Part shown: positions 38,341-59,068 of the stretch, piece by piece | Layout of the letters: each line of letters begins with the position of its first letter | How positions within the stretch are numbered: the stretch's first letter is position 1 | DNA from: Anniella stebbinsi | Taxonomy: Eukaryota > Chordata > Lepidosauria > Squamata > Anniellidae | Reading direction: 5' to 3' | NCBI GenBank assembly: GCA_029215795.1 | Contig: JARDYH010000004.1 | Location: 219,721,517 to 219,785,516, forward strand | Length of the DNA: 64,000 bases | Position numbers and translations under genes: made by a program | Notes under the pieces: generated by a model | The model's input: the letters and a program-made list of their open reading frames with translations, nothing else | The model's database searches: none | What the model was told of the DNA's origin: nothing

Positions 38341-38364
38341 GCTTGGACTCTTGCGGGTTTCTAG

Positions 38365-39934: not shown

Positions 39935-40109
39935 GTTTCTAGCTTCTACGCTTGGGCACTGCCTACAACTAGCCACCATAGACAATATTAAGAGATAATG
40001 GGAATTGTAGGCCAAAACATCTGGAGGGCCGCAAGTCAACCACCCCTGTTCTAGGAAATTCTTGGTTGCTGTGACCTACATAATCAGATCACCTGACCAA
40101 GAAGTGTAT

Positions 40110-40994: not shown

Positions 40995-41026
40995 AGTAGT
41001 TATAGGCCCTACTTGCTGTCAAAATT

Positions 41027-41034
41027 ATGCAAAT
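41027..41034 (+). promoter_or_regulatory. Octamer (Oct-1/NFIII-type) site ATGCAAAT in left terminus
   Basis: Perfect octamer, 33-40 nt from the left end of the element. Its mirror copy is at 59029-59036, the same distance from the right end. Adenovirus inverted terminal repeats carry an Oct-1/NFIII site in a similar place that stimulates protein-primed initiation. A matching role here is inference. Confidence 0.6.
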
Positions 41035-41070
41035 GAGGTCACGTGACCGGAAGTAAACAAAGCCATGCTG

Positions 41071-41085
41071 CCGGAAGTGACGTCA
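41071..41085 (+). promoter_or_regulatory. ETS/CRE composite motif CCGGAAGTGACGTCA, left terminus
   Basis: An ETS core (CCGGAAG) abuts a perfect CRE (TGACGTCA). The mirror copy is at 58978-58992. Related CCGGAAGTGACGT and TGACGTAGG strings recur through the neighbouring array. ETS and ATF/CREB factors bind such motifs in vertebrate promoters; their use here is inferred. Confidence 0.5.
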
Positions 41086-41154
41086 CCACCTGTCAAAACA
41101 AGACCACGTGACCGGAAGTAAACAAACCCACGTGACCGGAAGTGACGAATGTAA

Positions 41155-41435
41155 ACAAATGCCATGTGACCGGAACCGGAAGTGACGTAGGTATGCAACC
41201 CCCCCCTCTTGTGGCCGGAACCGGAAGTGACATAGGTAAACAAATGCCAGGTGGCCGGAACCGGTAGTGACGTAGGTATGCAACCCCCTCTTGTGGCCGG
41301 AACCGGAAGTGACATAGGTAAACAAATGCCAGGTGGCCGGAACCGGTAGTGACGTAGGTATGCAACCCCCTCTTGTGGCCGTAACCGGAAGTGACATAGG
41401 TAAACAAATGCCATGTGGCCGGAACCGGTAGTGCC
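41155..41435 (+). repeat. Subterminal tandem array, ~40-bp half-units, left TIR
   Basis: Seven cores of the form GGCCGGAACCGG(A/T)AGTGAC recur about every 40 bp. They alternate between a half-unit ending in ATGCAACCCC...CTCTTGTGG and one ending in GGTAAACAAATGCCAGG, giving an ~82-bp higher-order unit. One core is a T variant (GGCCGTAACC), shared with the right TIR. Long open frames here come from the repeat period and are not treated as genes. Confidence 0.8.
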
Positions 41436-41476
41436 GAATGTAAACAAAACCCAGGTGGCCGGAAACGGTTCAACAG

Positions 41477-41650
41477 TAACACGGGCCCCTCTGGGTGACA
41501 CGTTCTGTAGGAACATGTCCAGGCATGTCTCCCCACAGCCCCTCAGCGGTTGGCTAAGGAATAACACGGGGGCCGTCTGGGTGACACGTCTGCAGGAACA
41601 TGCCCAGGCATGTCTCCCCACAGCCCCTCAGCGGTTGGCTAAGGAATAGC
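41477..41650 (+). repeat. ~86-bp tandem duplication unique to the left TIR
   Basis: Two adjacent copies run from AACACGGG through GGTTGGCTAAGGAAT. The right TIR has one copy. The copies differ at a few bases (for example TTCTGTAGG against TCTGCAGG). The right-hand single copy mixes features of both, which fits unequal exchange or conversion. Confidence 0.8.
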
Positions 41651-41654
41651 TCGT

Positions 41655-41774
41655 GACCTGCCCCCTGGCCAATAGGAAGAGGTTTCAGAGCCCCCAACAC
41701 TAGGACAGGGCGTGCTGTGCTTTTCAGACAGCCGGGGCAAGCCGTCGGTCACAGTTGCTGATTTTTGGAAGAAC
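41655..41774 (+). promoter_or_regulatory. Promoter/leader region of left terminal gene (inside TIR)
   Basis: Non-coding stretch between the TIR repeats and the ATG at 41775, with a CCAAT box at 41669-41673 and no clear TATA box. The same sequence in inverse precedes the right terminal gene, so both genes probably share promoter sequence. Exact transcription starts cannot be read from the sequence. Confidence 0.45.
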
Positions 41775-42850
41775 ATGGAATCCCCCAGCACCCCGATGAG
41801 GCCTACGGAATTTTCTACCCCGATGGCGCCAGGCAGGCCTAAACCCAGAAAGCGGTATATCAGTACCAGCTCTGACGATGAACAGTTCCCACCAACAAAG
41901 ACCCCAGAGGAGGAAGAGAAAGATATCGCGGATATATGGCAAAGCTTATTGGTTTCAATTTCCTTAGAAAACTCTATAATGCAGGTAAAACAGCTTTTTA
42001 CACCTTTTTCTGGGGGCTATTTGTGTGGGAAACCGCTTGTAAGGTTTAAAGAAGATTACAAGTCTTCTTAACTTTCCAGGAGCCAGCTGCAGATACTGGA
42101 GCAGCTCAAGAATCTGAAAAGTCTGGCAGCACTAATGCACAACCGTCATCTACAGAACTCTGGAACGTGGCTTCTGCAGGCAACATTCACATTCAGGTGT
42201 GTGTGTGTGTGTGTGTGTGTGGGAGTCTGTGTGTCTGTGTGTCTGTGTCCTGTATAAAAAGTTTTCCCAAAAAATAATGTTAATAATTTTAAAATATCTT
42301 TTAGGCTCCTGAAGCGTTGGCAACCAACCAGCCTGCTCATCTCACACTGAAAAATCTTCTTGGACTACAAATTGATGAAGCACAGTATATTTTACCAAGA
42401 CAGCGACGCGGAGCTATGCGTGGCATTGTCAGAGCCACCATTTATGGCATTTTGAAACACTGCCTAAATCAGTATCTGTATGAGAGCTGTATTGGTTGTA
42501 CTATTCAAGCACCCGGGCAGAGCTCTCACGAATGTACAACATGGACAGAAATGGACATTTCCCAGAAATTACGCATTCTTTGTGCAAAACTGTGGTTTCA
42601 GCCTGTGTTGCATATTGTTATCCTCATTGCTTATTCTCTAAAATGTCTTGCTTTGACCTCAGAGAACGTGGACCAGGTCTTAATTCTGACTACAGAGATT
42701 AGTAGATCTGTAAATCCACGTACTCAGCTTGAAAAAATTATGAAGCCATCTGACCATACCTATCTTCAACATGTAGAACGGGTAATCAAAAATCGGCACT
42801 ATAAGTCATTTCTTACCACTGTAAATGCAGTTTTTAGAAATTCTGTATAA
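41775..42850 (+). CDS. Left terminal Maverick gene, three exons, unknown function
   Basis: Predicted spliced gene with exons 41775-41984, 42080-42196 and 42305-42850, all joined in phase 0, giving 290 residues. Junctions are CAG|GTAAAA, TTTCCAG|GAG, CAG|GTGTGT and TTTTAG|GCT; every exon is open and the intervening frames stop. The first 26 residues lie in the TIR and are identical to those of the right terminal gene. Exon 1 is rich in Ser/Pro and acidic residues. Exon 3 is a compact domain with a C-x2-C-x9-H-x-C cluster near residues 171-186, a possible zinc site, and a hydrophobic helix soon after. A (GT)n run opens intron 2. I do not recognise the family. An AATAAA follows at 42894-42899. 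Terminal position and TIR promoter suggest an early or regulatory protein (inference). Confidence 0.7.
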
Positions 42851-43355: not shown

Positions 43356-45600
43356 ATGAAAAATGGTGAGTGGTTTTGTCTATTGCTTCAACTGACTTTT
43401 TAAAAAGAAATTGTTTCTGCTTATTTATCACAGTTAAATATCCTAAATACAAGCTTGTTTTAATTTTGATTGGTTTGACAGTGTTTTGATTGGGGGTAGA
43501 AACTCGTTCTTTTACATGATAAAAAGAATTGGTCCAAGCAGATGACTGGGATGATTGATGACTGGGGTGTATTCAAGAGAATGTAGATACTTTTACTTAA
43601 ATATAAGGTGTTTTACATTTATCACTATGAATCTTTTAAAATTGGGGCTATAAGCTGGGTTATAAATTGGTGCTATAAGCATGCTGCCACTTTAATTAAA
43701 ACCCAAGTTCCTCACTTTTTTGTTTTAAGGTAATTCACAACCCCAGTGGTTTTACCATGCAGCGGCCTTTTTGGTACAGTTCAACACATTTTCGTTACAT
43801 TGAATAAAGTAGTAATTAAACAAACCCAAAATATGTATTTTAATACACAGACACAGCAGTAAAAAATAGCCATTTCAGAGTGCAACATGTAACAAAAACA
43901 GCCAGGCATTTTGCACTCATCCGATAGGGTGGTTTCTTGATCTTAAGCGTGCTTAAAAAACCATTTTCCTGTGATAAAGAGAATAAAACAGTTTTGGTTA
44001 AGAAGTACAGCATTAGCACAGTTTGTCTTTCACACAATTTCACAAAGGAGACATACCCAGCCTCCATTTTCATTGATCCACTGTGCCTTGGTGTTGAGTA
44101 TATATTCTGTCATGAATTTAGCCATCTTCCTGGTGTTTTCATGAGTCATAGGAATTCCGCGAGTTTGTAGTTTCTTTACGAGAATGCCCCCAAACAGAAA
44201 AATGGTTAAAATACGTCCCCAATTTATTTCTCCATCAGCAAATTCCCCTTCCATCACAAGATTGAAAATTCTACAGGCATCATCCACAGAATTAAGTTCA
44301 AGAGTGTCCGTAAGTGACCATAGCTCCTTGTCAGCAAAATCGTGATTTGTTGAGGTAAGTTTCTGTAAAATCAGGGGTGTTCTGTGTTGAGATGTTTGTC
44401 CAGAAGTGCAGTTCAAATAATTTTCAAAGCATTTGTAAATATAATCAAACGATACAGGAGCCATTGCCCTTGGCAGTATAGTGAAAAATGATCAAGGAAT
44501 TGCCCACTCTTTGTATTGTATCTGGTCTCATGCGGGCAGGTCTCAACATGCCCCAAGGGGACTGGCCACAGTTGCATACTCAAAATACTTGTGTTTTACA
44601 GATCGTGAAATGTCTTCCCCAAAGAAAAATGTTCTACCGGTGAGCCAGAGAACCATACCGGGGGCTTCACACACTAAAAACCAAGGTAAAGACAAACATG
44701 ATTATTTTTGGGTTATTTTGTTAGACAGACTGTCATGAATATTTTTGTAAATGCTTAATGTTTATTTTTTTTAAACAACCAGGCCCCGCACCTCAAGATT
44801 CAAAAAGTGAGCCATCGCCAAAGGCACATGATGACCCCCAAACTTCAAAAAATAAACCACCATCACCACGGATGCCACCAAAGCCACAAGAGGACCCCCA
44901 AGCTTCAAAGAGTGACAGACCCGGAGGACACGGTAAAGCAAAAAGAAAACTCAAACACCTCACAGCGAACACTTTAGAAACATCACCACTTAAAAAACAG
45001 AAGCTGGTCCTTGCTGTCCCTTCTTCTACTTCTTATAATGACTCGCTTGCAAAGCTCATGCAAGATGTTATGGCATCTTTGAGTGCCGGCTTACTGAGAC
45101 CCCATGCCTTAAAAAAATATGTGAAAGCTGCCCAGGCTAAAATTTCTGTCATACAAAAAGGTTTGGACAGGCAGCAAGGAGCAGGACGGCTGAAGAAACG
45201 TAGCCGCACACACAAAGAGCTAGCATTAAAATACATGTCAAAGCGTATTAGGAATGCTAAACGTATGAAAGTAGGGGTGAAAAGAAGCCCCTCGCTGTTA
45301 AAACTTTTAAGACAAATCAGAGACACTAGGGCTCCAAAGGCCTCTCCGACCACTGCCTGCAATGTGGACCCCCCACAACCCACCCAGATGACTGATTTAG
45401 AGGCTGAGGGGTCAGCCATTCTGAGTGCGGATGAATCCCCTACAGACCCCGGACTAGGCACCCCAGAAACCCAGGAGGAACACCCTCTAACTCCCAATGA
45501 ATTGCCAAGAGTTTATCTGGAGAGGCTGAATAGTTGGGAGTGGCATTCACCACGCCAACCCGTTTCTCGATACGGAGAAACCTTCAGGTTTGCCAACTAG
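43356..45600 (+). CDS. PolB gene, 5' part (N-terminal basic region), interrupted at 45597
   Basis: Predicted exons 43356-43365, 44602-44685 and 44783-45597. The first coding exon supplies only ATG plus seven bases; donors AATG|GTGAGT and CAAG|GTAAAG and acceptors TTTTACAG and AACAACCAG keep one frame, and ATG at 44610 is an alternative start. The encoded ~303 residues are Pro/Ser/Lys-rich at first, then strongly basic (many KR clusters, likely DNA-binding or nuclear), then acidic. The frame hits a stop only in the first codon of an inserted hAT transposon. The same frame resumes after the insertion at 47904 with the PolB core, so this was one continuous gene of about 1,475 codons. As it stands it would give only a truncated protein. 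Confidence 0.75.
43840..44464 (-). CDS. Bcl-2-like apoptosis regulator, two exons
   Basis: Predicted exons 44464-44057 and 43968-43840 (178 residues), joined in phase 0 with donor TGG|GTATGT and acceptor TTTATCACAG. Exon 1 has a BH1 signature with NWGR at residues 81-84 followed by a hydrophobic helix with FGG, and ends exactly on the last Trp of a BH2 signature, WINENGGW (129-136). Residues 7-18 resemble a Bcl-2 N-terminal helix. Exon 2 adds basic residues and a ~22-residue hydrophobic C-terminus, a plausible tail anchor for mitochondria or ER. Bcl-2 proteins of this layout usually block Bax/Bak-type death, which would suit a virus; the direction of effect is inferred. Vertebrate BCL2 has an intron at the same codon. 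The gene sits antisense inside a predicted PolB intron. A variant poly(A) signal, ATTAAA, overlaps the stop. Confidence 0.85.
45590..45597. repeat. Target-site duplication TTGCCAAC, left of hAT insertion
   Basis: Exact 8-bp repeat of 47896-47903, in frame within the PolB gene. Eight bp is the hAT-superfamily duplication length. Confidence 0.95.
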
Positions 45601-47895
45601 GGGTGTGCACGGACCCCCCGGATCGGATCGGGACCCGGATCGGGACCTCCAATTTTGTCCCGGACCGGTTCGGACAAAATCGGAGGCCCCCCGGACCGGA
45701 TCGAGTCCGATCCCGATCCAAAAATCGGAAATTTTTGGATCGGCCGCCATTTTTTTCCCCATAGACTTGCATTGCAATGCAAGTCTATGAGGAAAAAATG
45801 GCGGCGGGTGGGTAAGGGGGGGCCTAACTCCCTCCCCCCCCCGGGGCCGTCCGCTGTGGACGGCCCCGGCAGGTAAACCCCCTCCCCCGCGCTCCCTACC
45901 CCCCCTGGGGCCGCCTGCTTCCATCCGCTGGCGCCCGCGGGCGCCAGCGGATAGAAGCGGACGGCTCCGGGGGGGGGTAAGCCCCCTTCCCCGCCACTTA
46001 CCTTCTCGGCACGTCCGGCGCCGGCGGCTACTACCAGCGGGCTCCGCGGCCTACTCTCGAGTAGCGCGCCGGGTGATGACATCACCCGGCGCGCCACCCT
46101 GGAGCAGGCCGCGGAGCCTGCTGGTAGTAGTAGGCGCCGGCGCCGGACGGGAGCCGCCGGGCCGGGCAGGTAAGGGCCCCCCTCCCCCCTCCCCCCTCCG
46201 CGCGCCCCCTCCTCCCCTCCACGCACCCCCTCCTTACCTTTCCGGCCCGGCGGCTCCCGTCCGGCGCCGGCGCCTACTACTTCCAGCAGGCTCCGCGGCC
46301 TGCTCTAGAGTAGTGCGCCGGGTGATGACATCACCCGGCGCGCCATCCTAGAGCAGGCCGCGGAGCCTGCTGGGAATAGTAGGCGCCGGCGCAGGACGGG
46401 AGCCGCCGGGCCGGAAAGGTAAGGGCCCCCCTCCCCCCTCCGCGCGCCCCCTCCTCCCCTCCACGCACCCCCTCCTTACCTTTCCGGCCCGGCGGCTCCC
46501 GTCCGGCGCCGGCGCCTACTACTTCCAGCAGGCTCCGCGGCCTGCTCTAGAGTAGTGCGCCGGGTGATGACATCACCCGGCGCGCCATCCTAGAGCAGGC
46601 CGCGGAGCCTGCTGGGAATAGTAGGCGCCGGCGCCGGACGGGAGCCGCCGGGCCGGAAAGGTAAGGGCCCCCCTCCCCCCTCCGCGCGCCCCCTCCTCCC
46701 CTCCACGCACCCCCTCCTTACCTTTCCGGCCCGGCGGCTCCCGTCCGGCGCCGGCGCCTACTACTTCCAGCAGGCTCCGCGGCCTGCTCTAGAGTAGCGC
46801 GCCGGGTGATGACATCACCCGGCGCGCCATCCTAGAGCAGGCCGCGGAGCCTGCTGGGAATAGTAGGCGCCGGCGCCGGACGGGAGCCGCCGGGCCGGAA
46901 AGGTAAGGGCCCCCCTCCCCCCTCCGCGCGCCCCCTCCTCCCCTCCACGCACCCCCTCCTTACCTTTCCGGCCCGGCGGCTCCCGTCCGGCGCCGGCGCC
47001 TACTACTACCAGCAGGCTCCGCGGCCTGCTCTAGAGTAGCGCGCCGGGTGATGACATCACCCGGCGCGCCACCCTAGAGCAGGCCGCGGAGCCTGCTGGG
47101 AATAGTAGGCGCCGGCGCCGGACGGGAGCCGCCGGGCCGGAAAGGTAAGGGCCCCCCTCCCCCCTCCGCGCGCCCCCTCCTCCCCTCCACGCACCCCCTC
47201 CTTACCTTTCCGGCCCGGCGGCTCCCGTCCGGCGCCGGCGCCTACTACTACCAGCAGGCTCCGCGGCCTGCTCTAGAGTAGCGCGCCGGGTGATGACATC
47301 ACCCGGCGCGCCACCCTAGAGCAGGCCGCGGAGCCTGCTGGGAATAGTAGGCGCCGGCGCCGGACGGGAGCCGCCGGGCCGGAAAGGTAAGGGCCCCCCT
47401 CCCCCCTCCCCCCTCCGCGCGCCCCCTCCTCCCCTCCACGCACCCCCTCCTTACCTTCCCGGCCCGGTGGCTCCCGTCCGGCGCCGGCGCCTACTACTAC
47501 CAGCAGGCTCCGCGGCCTGCTCTAGAGTAGCGCGCCGGGTGATGACATCACCCGGCGCGCCACCCTAGAGCAGGCCGCGGAGCCTGCTAGTAGTAGTAGG
47601 CGCCGGCGCCGGACGGGAGCCACCGGGCCGAGAAGGTAAGTGCCCCCCTCCTCCCCCCCCCCGCTGTCCACTTTCATCGGCGGGCGCCCGCTGGCGCCCG
47701 CCAATGGAAGCGGCGGTGGGCGCCAGTTGGCGCCCGCAGATCCGCCGATCCGCCGAACCGGTTCGGAGCTTTTTCGGACCGGTTCGGATTGGATCGGCCG
47801 ATCCAGCTGCGGGATCGGAAATCGGATAATTTATCCGATTTCCCACTGGACCGGACTCGGATCGTGGATCGGGTCCGATCCAGTGCACATCCCTA
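45598..47895 (-). mobile_element. hAT-type non-autonomous transposon inserted in PolB
   Basis: 2,298 bp, very GC- and CpG-rich, with short inverted ends TAGGGGTGTGCAC / GTGCACATCCCTA and an 8-bp target duplication. Both subterminal regions carry many GATCGG/CCGATC words. Near one end is a hairpin around ACTTGCATTGCAATGCAAGT. The body is an array of about seven palindromic cores (GGGTGATGACATCACCC) spaced ~243 bp. There is no transposase frame; long open frames are GC-driven. It is a longer, inverted relative of the element at 38365-39934. It separates the two halves of the PolB gene. Confidence 0.93.
46030..47620. repeat. ~243-bp palindromic satellite array inside the hAT element (about 7 cores)
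   Basis: GTGATGACATCACC cores lie near 46071, 46319, 46562, 46805, 47048, 47290 and 47540. Each is flanked by inverted arms that contain GGCGCCGGCGCC and the start of a pyrimidine-rich CCCCTCCTCCCC spacer. Neighbouring units are nearly identical. Confidence 0.9.
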
Positions 47896-47903
47896 TTGCC
47901 AAC
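47896..47903. repeat. Target-site duplication TTGCCAAC, right of hAT insertion
   Basis: Exact match to 45590-45597, directly after the terminal CATCCCTA of the transposon. Confidence 0.95.
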
Positions 47904-50900
47904 CTGGAGCAATTAAACCATCCACTGCTGGTGCAAGAGGCAATCCAAGAGGCTGTACAGGGCCTGCTTGATGATCTTTACGTGAGGTTACATGATGAGG
48001 ATTTTGTTCAATTACGTCTAGATGGCGGAGGCCTAAATGACGCTCTCTTCACTGTGAGGAGGGTCAGGGGGGGCCTGCATGCTTCAGATCTGATGGACAA
48101 CCTCGCAAACCTTATGCAGAGCAATGCAGAGATCCACCTTCATGGGACATTGCGCTTAAATGTATGGGTTATCCGTAACAGTGGAGGACGGGGCCGTAGA
48201 GTTATAAGTACTCTGCTTCACAGCCAGTTAGTGCAAAAGAAAAGGCGTTTTTTAGCGGATCTAAACAGTACTGGTAGCAATCTGTGTTTTGGTGGGAGTC
48301 TCTTGGCAGTTATGGCCCCACAAAGACCCACCTTTGGGGAGTTAATAGATGGGGCGAGGCAGCTGTATAGAGAGCTTGGGTTTCCCGAAGATGACAAGAT
48401 AATGCTGAGTGATGTGACTGCCTTTGAAAGGCATTTCAAAGTAAATATCGCCGTGGTCCTGCACGGGACTAAGGGCTGGGAGATATTCAGGACTGGAGAC
48501 CCTGTACACACCCAAACTTTTCACCTACTGCTGCACGATGAGCATTACTATGGGATTCTAAACGCCAAAGCATTCTTTGGTAGTAAAAATTATTGTAGCG
48601 TCTGCGGCAACGTATACAGCCATAGTCACAAATGCAAATATTTATGCCGTTTATGTTTAGAGACCCTTTGCGAGCCAGTGCAAGAGGTGCGGTGTCCTTC
48701 TTGCAAGTTATTCTGTAGATCCAGAGAATGCTTAGAGAGACACAGTGCTTTGGCTGCTCTAAAGAAGGTGGACTGTAAATCTAAAATCATGTGCGAGACT
48801 TGCACATCCTATGTCCCCAAAAAACACAAATGCAAGGTGAAGTGCTGCAAGCAGTGCGAAAAGCCTGTTGGGGATATAAACAGTCACCGGTGCTTCATGC
48901 CGACTGTCAAGCGATCAGAAATTTCTGATAAATACATTTTTTATGACTTTGAAAGCACTCAGGAAACGGGGATCCACTCGCCCAACTACATTTTCGCAAT
49001 GGGTCTCAATGAAGCAGATGCATGGGAGTTCAAAGGGGAAGGTTGCACCTCTGACTTTGTCAAAAGGTTTATTGACAAAAAGTACAGGGGTTGGACTTTT
49101 ATGGCCCACAACGCAAGGGGTTATGACAGTTATTTCATAGTTAGACAGCTCATTGCAGAAAAGATGGATGTGGATCTTATCACCCAGGGAGGCAAGCTAA
49201 TGTGTGTGACGGTGAAGAAGCTTGGAATACGATTTATAGACAGCCTGAACTTCTTGCCCATGAAACTGTCCAAATTGCCACAAGCCATGGGTTTTGAGGG
49301 GTGCAAAGGGTATTTCCCACATTTTTTCAACACCGCTGAAAACTGGGATTATGTGGGTCCTATGCCCAGCATTGATCAGTACGGGGCTGACAGCATGATG
49401 CCTGGTGAGAGAGCCGAGTTTCTCTCGTGGTATAGGGACAATCAAAACAACATTTTTAACCTGCAAAAAGAGCTCACGTACTACTGCAAGCAAGATGTTA
49501 AAATTCTGAGAAAGGCCTGCATCCTGTACCGAGAAGAAATCATACGCATGACATCTGGGGATGGATCATCTGCAACAGGTATTGACCCTTTCCAATGCCT
49601 CACTCTAGCCAGTGTCTGCATGGTCATGTTTAGACACATGTTTTTAAAAGAAAACAGCATCGCACTTATCCCACATGACAACTACCATAGACAGATAAAG
49701 AGACATTCTACACCTTCAATACAGTGGTTGATGTATCTAGAACACAAGGAAGGTATTGAGATTCAACACGCGCTGAAAGGTGGGGAGCAAAAAGTAGGCC
49801 CTTATTTCCTTGATGGATATGCAGAAATTGATGGTTGTAGAACAGCCTTCGTGTTTAACAGCTGCTTTTTTCACGGTTGCTCAATTTGCTACAATGAGGC
49901 CGGGCGAAATCCGATGACGGACACAAGTTATCGGGATCTGAATTACCGTACACAAAACAAAGCTGACTATCTCAGAAGGCAGGGGTTCAATGTCAGAACC
50001 CTTTGGGAGCATGAGTGGAAGGAGATGTTGGAATCTGATGGGGAACTCGGAGAGTTCCTAAGTGAGAAGGGCCTGCCTCAGCCTCTACAGCCTAGAGATT
50101 CTCTGTTTGGGGGAAGAACAAATGCCATCTGCCTCTATTATAAGCCAAAGGCTGATGAGCAAATTCACTATTATGACTTTACCAGTCTGTACCCGTTTGT
50201 GAACAAAACAAAAGTATACCCCATTGGACACCCCAAAATAATTTATAGGGACTTTGGACCACTCTCTAGCTATTTCGGCCTTGCGAAAGTTAAAATGCTC
50301 CCTCCACGCGGCCTTCTTTTCCCTGTGTTGCCTGTCAGGGTGGGTGGAAAACTCATGTTCCCATTATGTCGTACATGTACCGAGACTAAACAACAGACAC
50401 ATTGTGCCCACAGAGATGATGAATGGGCTATTGAAGGAACGTGGTGTACTGTTGAATTGCTGAAAGCATTGGAGAAGGGCTACAAAGTGCTGACCATTTA
50501 TGAAATTTGGGATTTTGAAGAAAAATCTGATCAATTGTTTTCAGATTATATCAAACTGCACCTGCGCCAGAAGCAAGAGGCATCTGGGTACCCCTCTTGG
50601 TGTACAGATGAGGAGAAAAAGACAAAATATGTTAATGATTTCTTTGAGAAAGAGGGTGTGAAATTACGGCCACAGGAGATTGCTGTGAACCCCGCAAAGC
50701 GTCAAATTGCAAAGCTGTTCCTCAATTCTTTGTGGGGTAAATTTGGCCAACGCCCAAACTTAATGAATACCTCTATTGTGAGGGAGCCAGCTGAGCTTTT
50801 GGCTTATGCCTTTTCTCCACGCTATGAGGTTTCAAACTTTGAAATTATAGATGACGATACAGTGAGTGTATCCTGGAGACATGCAAAAGGTCTCCACACA

Positions 50901-51422
50901 CAACCGGGTAAGACTAATGTCGTGATAGCCTCTTTTACAACTGCTTATGCTCGTTTAGAATTGTACAACTTGTTAGATGTGCTGCAAGATAGATGCTTAT
51001 ACCATGACACAGATTCTGTGATATTTGTGAGTCGGAAAGGGGAACCAAATCCACCTCTGGGCGACTTCTTAGGGGACCTGACCAGTGAGATCCCACCAGA
51101 ACAGTTCATCACTGAGTTTGTGTCGGGTGGTCCTAAGACATATGCTTATCATTTATCCTCTGGCAAGTTTTGTGTCAAGGTCAAAGGCATTACTCTGAAC
51201 TTCTCCAACTCGGAAAAGATCAACTTTGACACTTTGAAGGAGCTTGTCTTAGATTATCGCACAGAATCAAATCTGAAAGAAATTGTAGTCCAGCAAGGGG
51301 CCATTGTGCGGAATAAAAAGCAGTGGCTTATCGAGTCAGGTATCCTTAAAAAAACACTCAGAGTGGTGTATGATAAGAGGGTCATCACAGAGGGATTTAA
51401 CACTCTTCCTTACGGCTTTTGA
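47904..51422 (+). CDS. Protein-primed DNA polymerase B, 3' part (exonuclease and polymerase core)
   Basis: Replicative polymerase of the element: 1,172 codons after the hAT insertion. The open frame runs back into the transposon to 47640, but that part is foreign. In order: a region with NLCFGGSLL and a distal LHDEHYYGI that could be an OTU-like fold (48282-48555, tentative); Cys/His-rich zinc modules at 48597-48900; exonuclease motif I YDFEST (~48943), II HNARGYDSY (~49108) and III YCKQDV (~49484); polymerase motif A DFTSLYP (~50175), motif B NSLWGKFG (~50724) and motif C YHDTDS (~51001-51017). All catalytic acidic residues are present. Family B enzymes of this type start from a terminal protein primer and match the inverted-repeat ends. 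The stop overlaps the ATG of the ATPase gene by one base (TGATG). With its 5' part cut off, normal expression is unlikely. Confidence 0.95.
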   Translation: MEQLNHPLLVQEAIQEAVQGLLDDLYVRLHDEDFVQLRLDGGGLNDALFTVRRVRGGLHASDLMDNLANLMQSNAEIHLHGTLRLNVWVIRNSGGRGRRVISTLLHSQLVQKKRRFLADLNSTGSNLCFGGSLLAVMAPQRPTFGELIDGARQLYRELGFPEDDKIMLSDVTAFERHFKVNIAVVLHGTKGWEIFRTGDPVHTQTFHLLLHDEHYYGILNAKAFFGSKNYCSVCGNVYSHSHKCKYLCRLCLETLCEPVQEVRCPSCKLFCRSRECLERHSALAALKKVDCKSKIMCETCTSYVPKKHKCKVKCCKQCEKPVGDINSHRCFMPTVKRSEISDKYIFYDFESTQETGIHSPNYIFAMGLNEADAWEFKGEGCTSDFVKRFIDKKYRGWTFMAHNARGYDSYFIVRQLIAEKMDVDLITQGGKLMCVTVKKLGIRFIDSLNFLPMKLSKLPQAMGFEGCKGYFPHFFNTAENWDYVGPMPSIDQYGADSMMPGERAEFLSWYRDNQNNIFNLQKELTYYCKQDVKILRKACILYREEIIRMTSGDGSSATGIDPFQCLTLASVCMVMFRHMFLKENSIALIPHDNYHRQIKRHSTPSIQWLMYLEHKEGIEIQHALKGGEQKVGPYFLDGYAEIDGCRTAFVFNSCFFHGCSICYNEAGRNPMTDTSYRDLNYRTQNKADYLRRQGFNVRTLWEHEWKEMLESDGELGEFLSEKGLPQPLQPRDSLFGGRTNAICLYYKPKADEQIHYYDFTSLYPFVNKTKVYPIGHPKIIYRDFGPLSSYFGLAKVKMLPPRGLLFPVLPVRVGGKLMFPLCRTCTETKQQTHCAHRDDEWAIEGTWCTVELLKALEKGYKVLTIYEIWDFEEKSDQLFSDYIKLHLRQKQEASGYPSWCTDEEKKTKYVNDFFEKEGVKLRPQEIAVNPAKRQIAKLFLNSLWGKFGQRPNLMNTSIVREPAELLAYAFSPRYEVSNFEIIDDDTVSVSWRHAKGLHTQPGKTNVVIASFTTAYARLELYNLLDVLQDRCLYHDTDSVIFVSRKGEPNPPLGDFLGDLTSEIPPEQFITEFVSGGPKTYAYHLSSGKFCVKVKGITLNFSNSEKINFDTLKELVLDYRTESNLKEIVVQQGAIVRNKKQWLIESGILKKTLRVVYDKRVITEGFNTLPYGF

Positions 51423-52099
51423 TGGATCACAGGTGGCAACATCCATTCTCGGCCATTCTGGCAGGGCCGAGCAACTGTGGTAAAAGCTATTTTATTAAAA
51501 ATTTGCTGGACAATGCTCATACCCTGCTCTCAATGACGCCTGAAAATATAGTGTGGTGTTATAGCTGTTGGCAACCATTGTACAAAGAACTGCTATGTAG
51601 ATATCCTTTTATTAAATTTATGGAGGGAATGCCTGAAAAGCTTGATGATGATGAACTTTTGCCTGTCAATAAAACAAATCTTTTAATTATGGATGATCTT
51701 ATGGACTCTGCCTCTAATAGCCAAGAAATTCAAAAAGCATTTACACAGTATGTACACCACCGGAACTTGAGTATCATTTTCATTACGCAGAATATTTTTT
51801 GCAAAGGAAAAAGCAACCGCACCATTAGTCTAAATGCAAAATACATGGTATTATTCAAAAGCCCCAGGGACAAATTGCAGATAGCGACTCTGGCTCGTCA
51901 GATGTTCCCAGGAAATGTCCGCTATTTCATGGAAGCCTTCCACGATGCCACATTTAAACCCTACGGCTATCTGTTGGTGGATTTAAACACAACCACCCCT
52001 GAATCTTACAGGTTGAGAACAGGGATTTTTCCACCAGACTGGCCTGTGGTATATACTATGAAAAAAGCCACACCTGGTTACAAAAGGAGCAGACAGTAG
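51422..52099 (+). CDS. FtsK/HerA-type genome packaging ATPase
   Basis: 225 residues. P-loop GPSNCGKS near residues 15-22 (51464-51487) and Walker B NLLIMDDL about 70 residues later. This compact A32-like packaging NTPase is a hallmark of Polintons and adintoviruses and would drive DNA into the capsid at the vertex. I chose the ATG at 51422, which overlaps the PolB stop in TGATG; an upstream TTG only adds one codon. The frame is intact. It starts a run of three tightly packed late-type genes before the convergence point. Confidence 0.93.
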   Translation: MDHRWQHPFSAILAGPSNCGKSYFIKNLLDNAHTLLSMTPENIVWCYSCWQPLYKELLCRYPFIKFMEGMPEKLDDDELLPVNKTNLLIMDDLMDSASNSQEIQKAFTQYVHHRNLSIIFITQNIFCKGKSNRTISLNAKYMVLFKSPRDKLQIATLARQMFPGNVRYFMEAFHDATFKPYGYLLVDLNTTTPESYRLRTGIFPPDWPVVYTMKKATPGYKRSRQ

Positions 52100-53293: not shown

Positions 53294-53299
53294 TTTATT
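53294..53299 (-). terminator. Poly(A) signal of the leftward gene block
   Basis: TTTATT on the plus strand (AATAAA on the minus strand), overlapping the protease stop at 53298-53300. About 100 bp separates it from the opposing signal, so the two blocks end tail to tail. Confidence 0.65.
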
Positions 53300-53843
53300 A
53301 GAAAACACGGCTATGAAAAGCAACACATGACAAACACCCTTGGGCTGTCTGAAACAAGTTTGAACCAGGGCGGCGTACATTTCTCTTGTTTTTTATAAAT
53401 TGTAAGACCATTTGGTCATTTCCTTGTAAATCGTAAGAATACAGTTCTTGGATCTGTTGAAATGTTAGACCCTTACATCGCTGCTGTAAGAAGAACACAC
53501 AGTGGTGACCACAAACCACAGAGTCTGGAGCCTGTATTTGCCGGGGCTGAAATGCCATCTTGCTAGCATTTTTTGTTAAAAATTTCATGATGGCTTCAGG
53601 AAACAGAGGATGGTCTGGAGGGTATCCGTAGGAATCAAAAAATTCCCCATTCTTGTCTTCTGTCAAGTAGATGGCCAACCAGTGCTCTCCGGGGAGGGTG
53701 TGGGGGTGGGTATTGACTATCAAACCCACGGGTCTTTGTAGCAATCTCGCTCTGGGGAGCATGTCGCAGGGGAACACTCCAAAGAAAGTCCTTCGTGTAT
53801 AGGGGTTTGAAGATAGGATCTGGGTTAACTGCACGCTGTCCAT
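53298..53843 (-). CDS. Adenain-type cysteine protease (maturation protease)
   Basis: 181 residues from the ATG at 53843, which follows the capsid stop by one base; an ATG at 53867 would add eight residues but overlaps the capsid gene. The catalytic layout of the adenovirus protease family is visible: His54 in GEHWL, Asp70 in FFDSYG, Gln104 in IQAPDS and Cys115 in CGHHC. Length is close to adenain (about 200 residues). It would process capsid or core proteins during maturation. The frame is intact. Confidence 0.93.
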   Translation of the reverse strand: MDSVQLTQILSSNPYTRRTFFGVFPCDMLPRARLLQRPVGLIVNTHPHTLPGEHWLAIYLTEDKNGEFFDSYGYPPDHPLFPEAIMKFLTKNASKMAFQPRQIQAPDSVVCGHHCVFFLQQRCKGLTFQQIQELYSYDLQGNDQMVLQFIKNKRNVRRPGSNLFQTAQGCLSCVAFHSRVF

Positions 53844-53844
53844 T

Positions 53845-55155
53845 TTACATATAGTCAAACAGGACATTTCTCCGGTGATTTATCTCTATCACATTGTCAA
53901 AAACACCATACACGACCATGTTGACTGTGGTTGGCAGGGCTACAGCAAAACGAAATTCTGCTCTCAGGTTCCCATTTCTAACCAAAGAATAGTGATCCCC
54001 ACATTCTTGGTCTGGAGTCAGGTCAAATGCAAAAAGAGTGTAGCCATTTGCAAACTCCTCACGGTTAATTACAAGACCTCTGTCTTTCATATGCTTGCCA
54101 GTTGTCTGAACCAAATTCATGTACTCTCTCACACAGTTCCCAGCTTCAAAATCAGGTTGGAGTGGTTTCATAGGGATCGAAAACCCATCCAGATAAAGTG
54201 ATACGTAATTAATATGGTAATTTTTAAAATTAAACGGGTTTTTATTGAATGTGCCACTGAATGCGTCATTATCCACCAGGCCTATCACAACCTGTTTAGG
54301 CATCTGGCCCAAAAACAGGTTCTCTTGGTTGCTGACACGGCTTCCTCTGGGGATACTAAACACTTTCATACTCACACGATCCACTGGATATTTGGCATTG
54401 GCTGTCAGCAGCGCCTCTGCATGGCCTAACCGGACACCCGGGGCCACTCTCACCTTCTTTACAAAGAGGGTGGCTGACAGAAGTTGTAGTTTGTAACGCC
54501 TATCTGCTGCAGCTGACATTAAGCAGAAAGCATCTTTGTTACGGGTCAGTTTAATTTTCAAATCCACGCCATTTAACAACAGCTTTTCTTGAAAAAACAG
54601 ATCAGAATGGAGCTGCCCCATCAGATCTATTTTCCGGCTTTCAGCTGTAAGGTTCGCTCTTTTAATGAATCCTTTATTATTCCCATCCAGAGCCACTGAT
54701 TCGTGTGCCCCAGCCGTGTCTTTGTAAAAGAGCCCAGCAGAGAATTGTGTGGCTAACGTATCTTCACTGTAGTTTAGTACGGATTCAATGAAAGCACGAT
54801 AAGGATAACAATTATTACTCTGAGTTATTAAGCGGTCTCCCAGTGTCACGTCCAGCTGGCTAAAAATGGAGGCTATGGGGTAATTTACCACGCTTACTTC
54901 AGTATCTCTGGCGAGATCTGTCCCATTTTCGTTGACAATTTTACAGCACAGGTACAGCAGTGTGTTGTTTAAATCCATATAATCTTCACCATTTCCCGCA
55001 ATGAAGAAGTCTACAGGAGAAGTTTCTGTCAGGGCTGCCAAGGGGGGTACTTCAATAAACAAGCTTCTCTCAATACTTGTCTGTGTAGGACCAATTTGGA
55101 ATAAATCTAATTCGGATTTAGTGCATTCTTCAGAGCTGCAGTGGATAAAAGCCAT
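53845..55155 (-). CDS. Major capsid protein (hexon-like, double jelly-roll)
   Basis: 436 residues, intact. The sequence is of the type widely found in Mavericks and often annotated in animal genomes as an F54H12.2-like uncharacterised protein, now recognised as the double jelly-roll major capsid protein. Visible traits are the N-terminal LDLFQIGPTQTSIE, a beta-rich body (LDVTLGDRLI, YLDGFSIPMKPL) and the C-terminal VVYGVFDNVIEIN typical of the family. It would form the hexon-like trimers of the shell. Neighbours are the protease (1 nt downstream) and the core-like gene (6 nt upstream). Confidence 0.93.
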   Translation of the reverse strand: MAFIHCSSEECTKSELDLFQIGPTQTSIERSLFIEVPPLAALTETSPVDFFIAGNGEDYMDLNNTLLYLCCKIVNENGTDLARDTEVSVVNYPIASIFSQLDVTLGDRLITQSNNCYPYRAFIESVLNYSEDTLATQFSAGLFYKDTAGAHESVALDGNNKGFIKRANLTAESRKIDLMGQLHSDLFFQEKLLLNGVDLKIKLTRNKDAFCLMSAAADRRYKLQLLSATLFVKKVRVAPGVRLGHAEALLTANAKYPVDRVSMKVFSIPRGSRVSNQENLFLGQMPKQVVIGLVDNDAFSGTFNKNPFNFKNYHINYVSLYLDGFSIPMKPLQPDFEAGNCVREYMNLVQTTGKHMKDRGLVINREEFANGYTLFAFDLTPDQECGDHYSLVRNGNLRAEFRFAVALPTTVNMVVYGVFDNVIEINHRRNVLFDYM

Positions 55156-55631: not shown

Positions 55632-56360
55632 TCAAAGCTGCAGGGTTCTCCGGGGCCGAAAGTGTAGCTTCACAAACACCTTCCCAAAACGGAATGGCAC
55701 GTTTTTGTTCTGGTCTGTCTTTATCTCAATAGTGATTGTGTCGATATGGTGTTTGCTCACCGGGATGTAGTGTGGCTTGTCGTAAACAATGTTGACACGT
55801 TCGTTGTTCTGGCCGCGTACAGGTACGCAACGCAGTAAAGGTACATAATAGTCTCCCACTATCTGGTGATTCACAATGTCTGTGTAAATGTATAAACTGT
55901 TAAAACCTCCAGTAATGTCAGCAGGAAAAGGCAATATTTCAACATCCTGATCAGGAAACAGGCCTAATATGTGGGCCAGTTCTGCACTTGCTCGAAAGGT
56001 ATTTTTTTCTGTTGCTTGCAGGCTGATTTTTCTAGACACAGCGTCATAGTGCAGGGTCACTTTCGGACCACCACGTATATGGCTGTTCATGCTTTCCACC
56101 AGCTCAGGAATGCTGGCATAATAGCCGCGGCGCAGAAAAAAACGATACCTACGTACACCGTTAGAAATTTCAAATCGTGCATCAGTAGTTAGAGTGTCCC
56201 AGCTGTGGGGGTATTGAGTTTCAACGAGGCCCACTTCCCATGCGCCTGGAAGATCCAACGCTCTTGCTAATTGTATAGTATATGCCGAACTCTTGTTGTT
56301 TGGAAAAACCTCCGCACAAGCATTGCTAGGCAGGGTTATGTAAAAACCACTCTCATCCAT
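55632..56360 (-). CDS. Minor capsid protein (penton-like, single jelly-roll)
   Basis: 242 residues, intact. The beta-rich sequence starts MDESGFYITLPSNAC, with a VGLVETQYPHSW segment, a central ISLQATEKNTFRASAELA and a C-terminal basic tail. This is the pattern of the Polinton/adintovirus minor capsid (penton) protein, which would form the pentameric vertices. The start overlaps the end of the integrase gene by 8 bp, and the core-like gene begins two bases after its stop. Confidence 0.9.
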   Translation of the reverse strand: MDESGFYITLPSNACAEVFPNNKSSAYTIQLARALDLPGAWEVGLVETQYPHSWDTLTTDARFEISNGVRRYRFFLRRGYYASIPELVESMNSHIRGGPKVTLHYDAVSRKISLQATEKNTFRASAELAHILGLFPDQDVEILPFPADITGGFNSLYIYTDIVNHQIVGDYYVPLLRCVPVRGQNNERVNIVYDKPHYIPVSKHHIDTITIEIKTDQNKNVPFRFGKVFVKLHFRPRRTLQL

Positions 56361-57459
56361 TCTTCAGCTTTGTAGGTTCGCAAAGATCAGAAGCATGTAC
56401 CCAACTGTTGAATTTGCTAGGCCAACCTAGCCATTTAACCAGATGATACTTTTTCTTACCCCTGCCTTTCGTAGATAGTATTTTTTCAATCCTGTACACT
56501 CGGTCTTCCTTGGCTTTAACCTTCAGCATTTCTTCGGCGTAGAATGTTCCAACAACATCCTCCCCCTCATAATCTTTTAACCTGTACACAGGCCTTTTTG
56601 TCTTTAGGATGACTTGATCCACAATAAACAATTCTGTGGTGAAATTCTGTTCGTAACCCTTGGTAAATACCCCCTTGCTTTTAGATATCCGAACGTGGTC
56701 TCCTTTTCTGAACAAAGGGACCTCTGCTTTTCTACTAACACTGTCTCCATAGACTGTTTTCCAAACCGCAAGTGAGTTAGACTGATTAACATCCACAGGC
56801 CGGGCCCGGATGGTTCTGTGAAAGCTGTGGTTATAACTTTTTAGGAGGCGTGGCAGCACATCGATATAGTTGAAAGTATTATTCGCTGTAAAATACCTCC
56901 ACATTTTTGTTTTGAAAGTTCTATTAAAACGCTCTACCACGGCTGCTTTGACATCATTATTGGTGACAAAATGATGAATGCCATGTTGTTTTAACATCTT
57001 ATTTACAGACTGATTTAGAAACTCTTTCCCTCTGTCCGTTTGCAGTTTGCCCGGCTTTCTGGAATCTTGTTTAAAAAGGGCATTAAAGGCCTTGGACACT
57101 TCTTTGCCTGTCTTATTTTTTAAAGCAACAGCCCAAGCATATTTAGACAAAATGTCTATCACTGTTAAAATGTACTTGTAGCCCTTGTTGTATTTAGAAA
57201 ACTGCTGCATATCCACTAAGTCAGCTTGCCACTGGGCATCCGTTCCAGACACAATTGTTTTGTTTCTTTTAAAATGGAGTCTGACCGGCCTATGCAGCGT
57301 GTAAGCATCCTGGTCTGAAAGCCATGAGATAACCTGCTTTTTAGTCACCTTTTCATTCTGCTTTTTGGCCTCCTGAAATAGAGGGTCCACACCTCCAAAG
57401 CTCCCGGCCTTCCCGGGTGTATAATAAATATTCCTTAGGATCTCTTCAAGATCTGCCAT
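56353..57459 (-). CDS. Retroviral-type DDE integrase with C-terminal chromodomain
   Basis: 368 residues, intact. The catalytic core has Asp80 in QWQADLVD, Asp142 in LQTDRGKEF and Glu176 in VVERFNRT. A beta-barrel-like DNA-binding region follows (FRKGDHVRIS, ~residues 247-300). Residues ~318-360 form a chromodomain (YRIEKIL, KYHLVKWLGWPSKFNSWV) that may guide target choice through histone marks. It would insert the element into the genome with a 6-bp stagger, matching the observed CCTTAC duplication. No canonical HHCC zinc finger is obvious at the N-terminus. Confidence 0.95.
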   Translation of the reverse strand: MADLEEILRNIYYTPGKAGSFGGVDPLFQEAKKQNEKVTKKQVISWLSDQDAYTLHRPVRLHFKRNKTIVSGTDAQWQADLVDMQQFSKYNKGYKYILTVIDILSKYAWAVALKNKTGKEVSKAFNALFKQDSRKPGKLQTDRGKEFLNQSVNKMLKQHGIHHFVTNNDVKAAVVERFNRTFKTKMWRYFTANNTFNYIDVLPRLLKSYNHSFHRTIRARPVDVNQSNSLAVWKTVYGDSVSRKAEVPLFRKGDHVRISKSKGVFTKGYEQNFTTELFIVDQVILKTKRPVYRLKDYEGEDVVGTFYAEEMLKVKAKEDRVYRIEKILSTKGRGKKKYHLVKWLGWPSKFNSWVHASDLCEPTKLKNG

Positions 57460-57543: not shown

Positions 57544-58374
57544 CTATTTTTCAATGTCCATGCCTGGAGAAATACACGAAATGCAGGTAATCTTGACAGT
57601 CCGTGAAGTGTCAATGTTCAAGTTCTCAAGACCAACACACGTACAACGCTCCTATGTAAAACAAAGACAAGATTTTTAGTAATCTACAATCACCCTCAAC
57701 ATACTAGTGACAACAAATTTAATATAAAAAATACTTACTGGTGCTCCTCCTTTCTCGGTCATAACCTCCATCTCCTCTTCCAGAGTCTCCAGGGTTGGTT
57801 GGTAAGTAGAACCGGCTGTGTCAGGATCTCCAAGCCCCATTTTCTCTATAGACAGGCTGGCCAGTTTCCTAAGTACACCCCCATCCGCCTCCTCAGCGAT
57901 GCTGGTGAACTCCCCAAGGCTGTCGGAAGTATCCGTAAGCTCATTCTTTAGCAGCATCTTGTTCAAACCACACACCGTATCAGGCCATTGATCGGTATAA
58001 TCCATTCTCCAATCGACCCCTGATACTTTATCAGCCCACTGGTCGGTATAATCCATTCTCCAATCGACCCCTGATACTGTATCAGCCCACTGGTCGGTAC
58101 AATCCATTCTCCAATCGAACCCTGATGCGGTTTCAGGAAGAGAAGACTGTCCTGTATTCAGCTTTCTAGGTTGGAGCTTCAAGGGGGCCAGTGGAAAAGA
58201 AAAACCACAAGGCCCCACAGATAATGGTTTGCTCTCGGCTGCAGCAGAACTGTTCTGAGGATCTGGTGGATATGATAAAGACCGAATCGTACCCTTCTTT
58301 CTGGGTTTAGGCCTGCCTGGCGCCATCGGGGTAGAAAATTCCGTAGGCCTCATCGGGGTGCTGGGGGATTCCAT
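57544..58374 (-). CDS. Right terminal Maverick gene, two exons, 17-residue repeats, unknown function
   Basis: Predicted exons 58374-57739 and 57651-57544 (247 residues). Donor CCA|GTAAGT and acceptor TTTTACATAG join in phase 0; the unspliced frame runs to 57676. The first 26 residues lie in the TIR and equal those of the left terminal gene. Residues ~80-130 hold three near-identical 17-residue units of the type SGVDWRMDYTDQWADKV (51 bp each). An acidic region follows with EEEMEVMTEK, and exon 2 adds a 35-residue Cys-containing tail beginning ERCTC. I do not recognise the family. Regular Trp/Asp repeats suggest a binding scaffold (inference). An AATAAA lies right after the stop. Confidence 0.65.
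57970..58135 (-). repeat. 51-bp coding minisatellite, 3 units
   Basis: Tandem units containing TATAATCCATTCTCCAATCG on the plus strand. They encode the DWRM(D)YTDQWAD repeat in the right terminal gene. The third unit differs by C for Y, F for V and one synonymous change. Confidence 0.9.
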
Positions 58375-58490
58375 GTTCTTCCAAAAATCAGCAACTGTGA
58401 CCGACGGCTTGCCCCGGCTGTCTGAAAAGCACAGCACGCCCTGTCCTAGTGTTGGGGGCTCTGAAACCTCTTCCTATTGGCCAGGGGGCA
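58375..58490 (-). promoter_or_regulatory. Promoter/leader region of right terminal gene (inside TIR)
   Basis: Inverse copy of 41655-41774, including the CCAAT box. It precedes the ATG at 58374. Confidence 0.45.
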
Positions 58491-58592
58491 GGTCACGAGC
58501 TATTCCTTAGCCAACCGCTGAGGGGCTGTGGGGAGACATGCCTGGGCATGTTCCTACAGAACGTGTCACCCAGAGGGGCCCGTGTTACTGTT

Positions 58593-58910
58593 GAACCGTT
58601 TCCGGCCACCTGGGTTTTGTTTACATTCGGCACTACCGGTTCCGGCCACATGGCATTTGTTTACCTATGTCACTTCCGGTTACGGCCACAAGAGGGGGTT
58701 GCATACCTACGTCACTACCGGTTCCGGCCACCTGGCATTTGTTTACCTATGTCACTTCCGGTTCCGGCCACAAGAGGGGGTTGCATACCTACGTCACTAC
58801 CGGTTCCGGCCACCTGGCATTTGTTTACCTATGTCACTTCCGGTTCCGGCCACAAGAGGGGGGGTTGCATACCTACGTCACTTCCGGTTCCGGTCACATG
58901 GCATTTGTTT
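58593..58910 (-). repeat. Subterminal tandem array, right TIR
   Basis: Inverse counterpart of the left array with the same variant order. The C/G run next to the outermost unit differs by one base (8 on the left, 7 here). Confidence 0.8.
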
Positions 58911-58977
58911 ACATTCGTCACTTCCGGTCACGTGGGTTTGTTTACTTCCGGTCACGTGGTCTTGTTTTGACAGGTGG

Positions 58978-58992
58978 TGACGTCACTTCCGG
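58978..58992 (-). promoter_or_regulatory. ETS/CRE composite motif, right terminus
   Basis: TGACGTCACTTCCGG on the plus strand, the inverse of 41071-41085 and at the same distance from the terminus. Confidence 0.5.
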
Positions 58993-59028
58993 CAGCATGG
59001 CTTTGTTTACTTCCGGTCACGTGACCTC

Positions 59029-59036
59029 ATTTGCAT
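59029..59036 (-). promoter_or_regulatory. Octamer (Oct-1/NFIII-type) site in right terminus
   Basis: Reads ATTTGCAT on the plus strand, the inverse of ATGCAAAT, 33-40 nt from the right end. It is the partner of the site at 41027-41034. Confidence 0.6.
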
Positions 59037-59068
59037 AATTTTGACAGCAAGTAGGGCCTATAACTACT

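Follow-up and report, generated by a model that had tools for sequence, protein, structure and literature searches.

Host genes captured by viruses are said to be intronless almost always, and the exceptions named are two herpesvirus genes, vNr-13 of herpesvirus of turkeys (HVT) and vIL-10 of ovine herpesvirus 2 (OvHV-2). HVT vNr-13 is a viral Bcl-2 gene of two exons, with an exon/intron organisation conserved with that of the host gene (PMC7199394), and OvHV-2 vIL-10 is a captured gene with the host intron structure that is cited for DNA-mediated transfer (PMC9578709); a commentary counts one exception only to the intronless state of viral genes (PMC9596153). Bcl-2-like sequence is reported from mobile elements too: a BCL2-like motif has been described in Burro, a group of giant Gypsy-like elements in planarians (PMC6431247). 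Intact vertebrate Mavericks have (AGT)2//(ACT)2 ends, a 6-bp target-site duplication (TSD), convergent gene modules and accessory regions, and no introns were found in those surveyed (PMC8097293); intronless genes are not a defining trait of the group. Here we describe a Bcl-2-type gene with a predicted intron inside a Maverick of the squamate Anniella stebbinsi. It lies on a stretch of 64,000 nucleotides (assembly GCA_029215795.1, contig JARDYH010000004.1, positions 219,721,517 to 219,785,516), which we call the window and whose own numbering is used throughout. The gene sits in the left accessory region of an 18-kb, betaadintovirus-like element, between the left terminal inverted repeat (TIR) and polB (Table 1). 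Our favoured reading, to which we give a probability of about 0.75, is that an ancestor of this Maverick took a BCL2A1-type gene from squamate chromosomal DNA, intron included, and that the predicted spliced product would block mitochondrial death.

A Bcl-2-type gene with a predicted intron in a Maverick

An earlier note on this DNA had pointed to BH1 (NWGR) and BH2 (WINENGGW) motifs in a Bcl-2-like gene, and both the motifs and the family held up. The unspliced open reading frame (ORF; 44464-44030, minus strand, 144 codons) contains BH1 as part of EFADGEINWGR, followed by BH2, the Trp of which is codon 136 of the gene. It matches the Pfam Bcl-2 profile PF00452 with 77.7 bits against a cut-off of 31.4 (E = 1e-21). 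Among the best 60 of 232 matches in the PDB, the closest sequences are BCL2A1 (A1) chains (E = 9.6e-28 to 1.2e-25); zebrafish NRZ follows at 5.1e-13, and BCL2 and MCL1 come in at E values of at least 1.9e-9. With BCL2A1 so far ahead in these scores, BCL2, MCL1 and NR-13-type proteins were ruled out as nearest kin. Identity to named squamate BCL2A1 proteins is 41-53%. These comparisons support the assignment of the captured gene to the BCL2A1 type, rather than to BCL2, BCL2L1 or NR-13.

Directly after the BH2 Trp lies a predicted phase-0 GT-AG intron, just as the earlier note had it, and its junction, 44057/43968, is exact in the sequence. If the intron is retained, the frame stays open for eight codons beyond the donor and meets a stop in the ninth intron codon. 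If it is removed, the frame continues into a second exon beginning ENGFLSTL; BCL2A1 last exons in amniotes mostly begin DNGF or ENGF. We compared this exon with 35 BCL2A1-family tails, namely those recognised by a text pattern among 67 homologous proteins, with P0047, P0066 and P0067 excluded. The mean local score was 29.1, against 18.7 (s.d. 1.9, maximum 28.2) for shuffled versions of the exon, none of 2,000 matching the observed score. Most of the likeness comes from the initial ENGF and a few residues further on. When both strands of the 64 kb were scanned with nine of the 35 tails, the top-scoring place among 23,283 stop-free 42-codon stretches overlapped exon 2 (30.2; next place 25.8), and a chance GT-AG pair is therefore held unlikely. 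Of seventeen acceptors tried with the GTATGT donor, four yield frames longer than 30 codons, and two of these four lie inside the exon-2 frame. The end of exon 2 reaches a mean hydropathy of 1.93 over its best 19 residues and contains one Lys, which bears out at sequence level the tail-anchor-like end proposed earlier; the 15 named squamate tails range from 0.44 to 1.21, the maximum among all 35 tails is 2.17, and three of the 35 exceed exon 2. The 88-nt intron would presumably be removed by host nuclear splicing.

The intron also falls at the position and in the phase of the host intron, in so far as these can be inferred from protein sequences, and in this too the earlier note proved right. 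Two Sceloporus BCL2A1 isoforms (P0007 and P0005) are identical through the BH2 Trp and diverge from the very next residue. A script recognised a BH2-type Trp in 64 of the 67 homologues. Thirty-nine of the 64 go on in an exon-2-like manner, as judged by a loose pattern; of the remaining 25, 21, including P0001, have Val (GTN) after the Trp, the residue that phase-0 read-through of a GT donor would give. In this count a second NGGW beyond BH2 caused P0067 to be misfiled, and one row, P0047, represents a fused protein.

P0001 (157 aa, ENA) is a relative that is 80% identical across exon 1. Its residues after the Trp, as far as its stop, align to the window intron, beginning at the fourth or fifth residue and with one single-base frame shift. 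The alignment scores 25.2, and the highest score among 3,000 further 88-mers starting with GT, drawn from 6,711 in the window and none overlapping the intron, is 19.4; when intron-overlapping pieces were allowed, 2 of 1,000 reached the score. Homology of the P0001 tail to the window intron means that P0001 reads into the same intron, and the predicted intron is thus common to both genes. A relative lacking the intron was not found, P0001 being the sole near relative known. Read-through tails of squamates, compared by eye, show no evident likeness to the window intron.

The Maverick context recognised in the earlier note is equally clear. The element begins AGTAGT and ends ACTACT, with a perfect 6-bp TSD (CCTTAC) on both sides, and encodes a protein-primed DNA polymerase B (PolB; PF03175, E = 1.1e-51) and an integrase with an rve core (PF00665, E = 1.8e-14) and a chromodomain (PF00385, E = 5.9e-7). 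Among the best 120 of 459 PolB matches, the top named ones belong to painted turtle (64%), alligator and garter snake. Aligned over 861 columns in two main pieces, the two TIRs show 4 mismatches and 3 gap openings, a near-identity that suggests a recent insertion.

Source, route of capture and predicted function

Two trees were built from the homologue set, one of 43 proteins plus the window gene (44 rows) and one of 35 plus the window gene (36 rows). Both hold BCL2A1 rows only and omit an isoform duplicate, some bird and mammal rows, the fused protein and remote Bcl-2 rows. The first has a cartilaginous-fish outgroup and includes P0022, which was not trimmed at the Trp; the second further omits the cartilaginous fishes, P0022, P0031, P0038 and P0052. 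The window gene pairs with P0001 in both trees (100/100), and the stem leading to the pair is long, at 0.74-0.82 changes per site. The second tree separates the pair and 20 squamate rows (three of them assigned to squamates by grouping) from 14 tuatara, turtle, bird and mammal rows with support of 100/99, and in the fish-rooted tree the pair falls outside the tuatara-turtle-bird-mammal set (96/94). A constraint uniting the squamate rows without the pair was not rejected in the approximately unbiased (AU) test (p-AU 0.289). The placement among host Bcl-2 proteins that the earlier note had envisaged thus stands for BCL2A1, with whose squamate members the pair groups; the other Bcl-2 family members lie outside these trees. 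The likely source of the gene, on this evidence, is a squamate or a stem squamate. Hemicordylus capensis has, alongside a normal BCL2A1 (P0017), a BCL2A1-like protein on a very long branch (P0052; 1.51), which could be another captured or duplicated copy.

Within exon 1, the window gene and P0001 differ at 27 of 136 sites, and at only one of the 49 sites from 62 to 110, which cover BH1 and the next helix. So long a stretch with at most one difference was obtained in 11 of 20,000 random placements. This conservation, together with the two open frames, suggests that selection acts on the protein.

An intron at the host position and in the host phase points to likely capture from host DNA, not from spliced RNA. 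In the route that we propose, the element would have integrated near the host gene, or recombined with it, and carried genomic DNA into its left accessory region, after which the captured intron would have shrunk. A retrocopy (processed gene) was rejected, given the predicted intron and the lack of a poly(A)-like run or flanking repeat: around the gene there is no A run longer than 8 and no exact flanking repeat longer than 10 nt. The genomic capture for which the earlier note argued is favoured by the shared predicted intron, by its position and by the missing retrocopy marks; the copying of unspliced pre-mRNA is compatible with the same observations. Capture at the DNA level is our best inference, since it accounts most simply for an intron that is shared, sits at a conserved position and comes with no signs of a retrocopy.

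The predicted fold agrees with the family assignment. An AlphaFold2 model of exon 1, built from 41 aligned rows, has a mean predicted local distance difference test (pLDDT) value of 83.5 and a predicted template modelling (pTM) score of 0.79. Among the best 50 of 567 fold matches in the PDB, the top 21 are all human BFL-1 or mouse A1, with template modelling (TM) scores of up to 0.89, reached with BFL-1; several of these are complexes with BH3 peptides. The structure prediction proposed in the earlier note therefore came out Bcl-2-like for exon 1, the part that was modelled. In a library of viral folds the best match was gammaherpesvirus BALF1 (TM 0.79, 18% identity), the sole one with E below 0.001, so that no close viral relative was found there. 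From family membership and the predicted fold, we infer that the Maverick gene would control host cell death. A nuclear transcript of the Maverick would be spliced by the host, with removal of the 88-nt intron; exon 1 would form the groove that binds BH3, and the tail from exon 2 would seek membranes. The protein may then sequester BAK/BAX or BH3-only proteins, like BCL2A1 and adenovirus E1B-19K, and the mitochondrial death of the infected cell would be blocked or delayed. Were the intron retained, the product would be a tailless form of 144 aa.

Several observations weigh against this account. To begin with, capture of unspliced pre-mRNA would leave an identical intron. An unspliced or partly spliced BCL2A1 pre-mRNA would in that case have been reverse transcribed, for example by a long interspersed nuclear element (LINE), and inserted in the Maverick with its intron kept. 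Uptake of host genes through LINE-1 has been shown in poxviruses, but the introns were spliced out in those experiments. Unspliced transcripts may be represented by Varanus P0003 and Salvator P0023, which run past the BH2 Trp with Val, although these may also be gene-model errors. The lack of an A run and of a flanking repeat speaks against such an event, though marks of this kind fade with age, and we consider capture through RNA unlikely. As to the source, the fish root falls among the squamates (forks 84/94 and 87/92), so that in this tree the squamates and the pair do not form a single clade.

Other points concern the product. The donor, TGG before GTATGT, agrees only in part with the splice consensus. 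With an alternative acceptor at 43915 the frame would run to 44 codons, longer than exon 2. If the intron were unused, the product would be the 144-aa unspliced protein, a soluble Bcl-2 protein without a tail. The eight open codons beyond the donor would fit this, as would the truncated form, extending into the intron, that has been reported for HVT vNr-13; an unused exon should decay, however, and exon 2 still has an open frame and still resembles host tails, which makes this outcome quite unlikely. The second-helix region has diverged from that of the host gene, and binding partners may therefore differ. It has further to be considered that the protein might regulate a process other than mitochondrial death, such as autophagy or innate signalling, like several poxvirus Bcl-2-fold proteins; a review tabulates a viral Bcl-2 homologue with a role in NF-kB signalling. 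Yet BH1 NWGR and BH2 are kept and the sequence is near a prosurvival protein, and we regard such a function as distinctly improbable.

The last points concern the viral setting. The PolB gene is split in its N-terminal part by a hAT-like insertion, and this Maverick copy is therefore not an intact virus. Pattern scans of the IMG/VR viral contigs gave no relative of the Bcl-2 ORF, and likewise none of the integrase or PolB. P0001 is known from a contig of 2,725 bp, so that the Maverick setting is seen only for the window copy. That a diverged BCL2A1 copy entered the Maverick after integration and was never viral is nevertheless highly improbable: one copy only has been shown in a Maverick, and the annotation of Hemicordylus includes a diverged protein of BCL2A1-like type (P0052), but the near-identical TIRs leave little time after integration in comparison with the long stem shared with P0001, and the gene occupies the accessory-region place of published Mavericks.

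The surrounding element

By order and strand, the ORFs (Table 1) fall into two convergent modules with accessory regions on the flanks, as in published Mavericks (PMC8097293). The PolB of adintoviruses carries an N-terminal OTU-like domain, and it is the corresponding stretch of the gene that is interrupted here.

Table 1. Coordinates of the Bcl-2-type gene and of the other features of the Maverick, in window positions.
Feature	Position	Strand	Description
Left TIR	40995..41852		Begins AGTAGT; TSD CCTTAC before it
BCL2A1-like gene, exon 2	43840..43968	minus	42 codons + stop; ENGF start as in host BCL2A1 last exon; hydrophobic tail-anchor-like end
Predicted intron	43969..44056	minus	88 nt, GT-AG, phase 0; starts GTATGT, ends TTATCACAG
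BCL2A1-like gene, exon 1	44057..44464	minus	136 codons, from ATG to BH2 Trp; Bcl-2 core helices, BH1 NWGR, BH2 WINENGGW
PolB N-terminal-side ORF	44758..45597	+	End aligns to N-terminal part of turtle Maverick PolB; cut by hAT-like insertion
hAT-like insertion	45598..47895		2,298 bp, TAGGGGTGTGCA-type ends, 8-bp TSD TTGCCAAC, inside PolB gene
Rest of protein-primed DNA polymerase B gene	47898..51422	+	PF03175
Packaging-ATPase-like ORF	51419..52099	+	Pox_A32 and Adeno_IVa2 matched weakly, under the cut-off
Two ORFs, 123 and 232 aa	52099..53168	+	Occupy places of published pm and pz
Protease-like ORF	53298..53867	minus	Adenovirus endoprotease matched weakly, under the cut-off
ORFs of 436 and 242 aa	53845..56360	minus	Places of published major/minor capsid genes; no profile match
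Integrase	56353..57459	minus	rve core + C-terminal chromodomain
Right TIR	58297..59068		Ends ACTACT; TSD CCTTAC after it

Two further accessory ORFs were noted. The first adjoins the Bcl-2 gene (42317-42850, plus strand, 177 aa) and gave no match in Pfam, PHROG, NCBIfam or the PDB; its single-sequence model is mostly helical and of very low confidence (pLDDT 40.6), and hence uninformative. The second (57676-58437, minus strand, 253 aa) contains about three copies of a 51-nt (17-residue) tandem repeat and has no convincing family or PDB match. The TIRs hold an 82-bp tandem array with CCGGAAGTGACGTA-like units; these resemble ETS and CREB/ATF sites and might be promoter elements. A 242-bp tandem array is found in the hAT-like insertion, an inverted relative of which lies outside the Maverick, at about 38356-39937. 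A search of Rfam gave no match at gathering thresholds.

Comparison with known systems

The gene shares with BCL2A1 (A1/BFL-1) of squamates and other amniotes its fold, BH1 and BH2, the start of exon 2 and, as inferred from proteins, the place and phase of the intron. It differs in lying inside a Maverick, in its predicted intron of 88 nt, in the diverged second-helix region and in a tail more hydrophobic than those of the 15 named squamate proteins. With intact vertebrate Mavericks/Adintoviridae the element has in common PolB, an rve-chromo integrase, two convergent modules, ends, sizes, accessory regions and the TSD, whereas its accessory Bcl-2 gene has a predicted intron. In this the element departs from the published picture of intact vertebrate Mavericks as intronless. 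The term 'bcl' is absent from the main text of the survey of these elements (PMC8097293), and the literature searched held no Bcl-2 gene in Mavericks, Polintons or adintoviruses; the founding adintovirus paper, which lies outside that scope, may list such genes.

Viral Bcl-2-fold proteins are also encoded by adenoviruses (E1B-19K) and gammaherpesviruses (BALF1/BHRF1). E1B-19K was rejected as the closest relative, since its highest place in the viral fold library is rank 17 (E 0.25) and it is absent from the best 60 of 232 sequence matches and the best 50 of 567 fold matches in the PDB. For adintoviruses, which have adenovirus-like parts, the gene described here would nonetheless be a candidate counterpart of E1B-19K whose host origin can be traced. 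Burro is an LTR (long terminal repeat) retrotransposon whose motif lies within a very long ORF1 polyprotein, in contrast to a separate, intron-bearing gene.

The routes by which DNA viruses acquire host genes are still being worked out, and an intron at a conserved position in a Maverick gene, if real, would be sequence evidence for another route in an integrating virus. A wider proposal is that chromosome-resident Mavericks take host genes directly from genomic DNA with their introns, a route distinct from the LINE-mediated mRNA route of poxviruses, and that the gene both records this and serves a lineage of reptile adintoviruses as a death blocker derived from BCL2A1; for this we see the odds as even. 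The two herpesvirus genes are the nearest precedents. OvHV-2 vIL-10 differs from the window gene in being a cytokine gene of a herpesvirus, and HVT vNr-13 in belonging to a herpesvirus, not to an integrating Maverick, and in being kin to Nr-13, not to BCL2A1. An intron-keeping viral Bcl-2 gene was thus known already; what appears to be new is one of the BCL2A1 type, carried by a Maverick.
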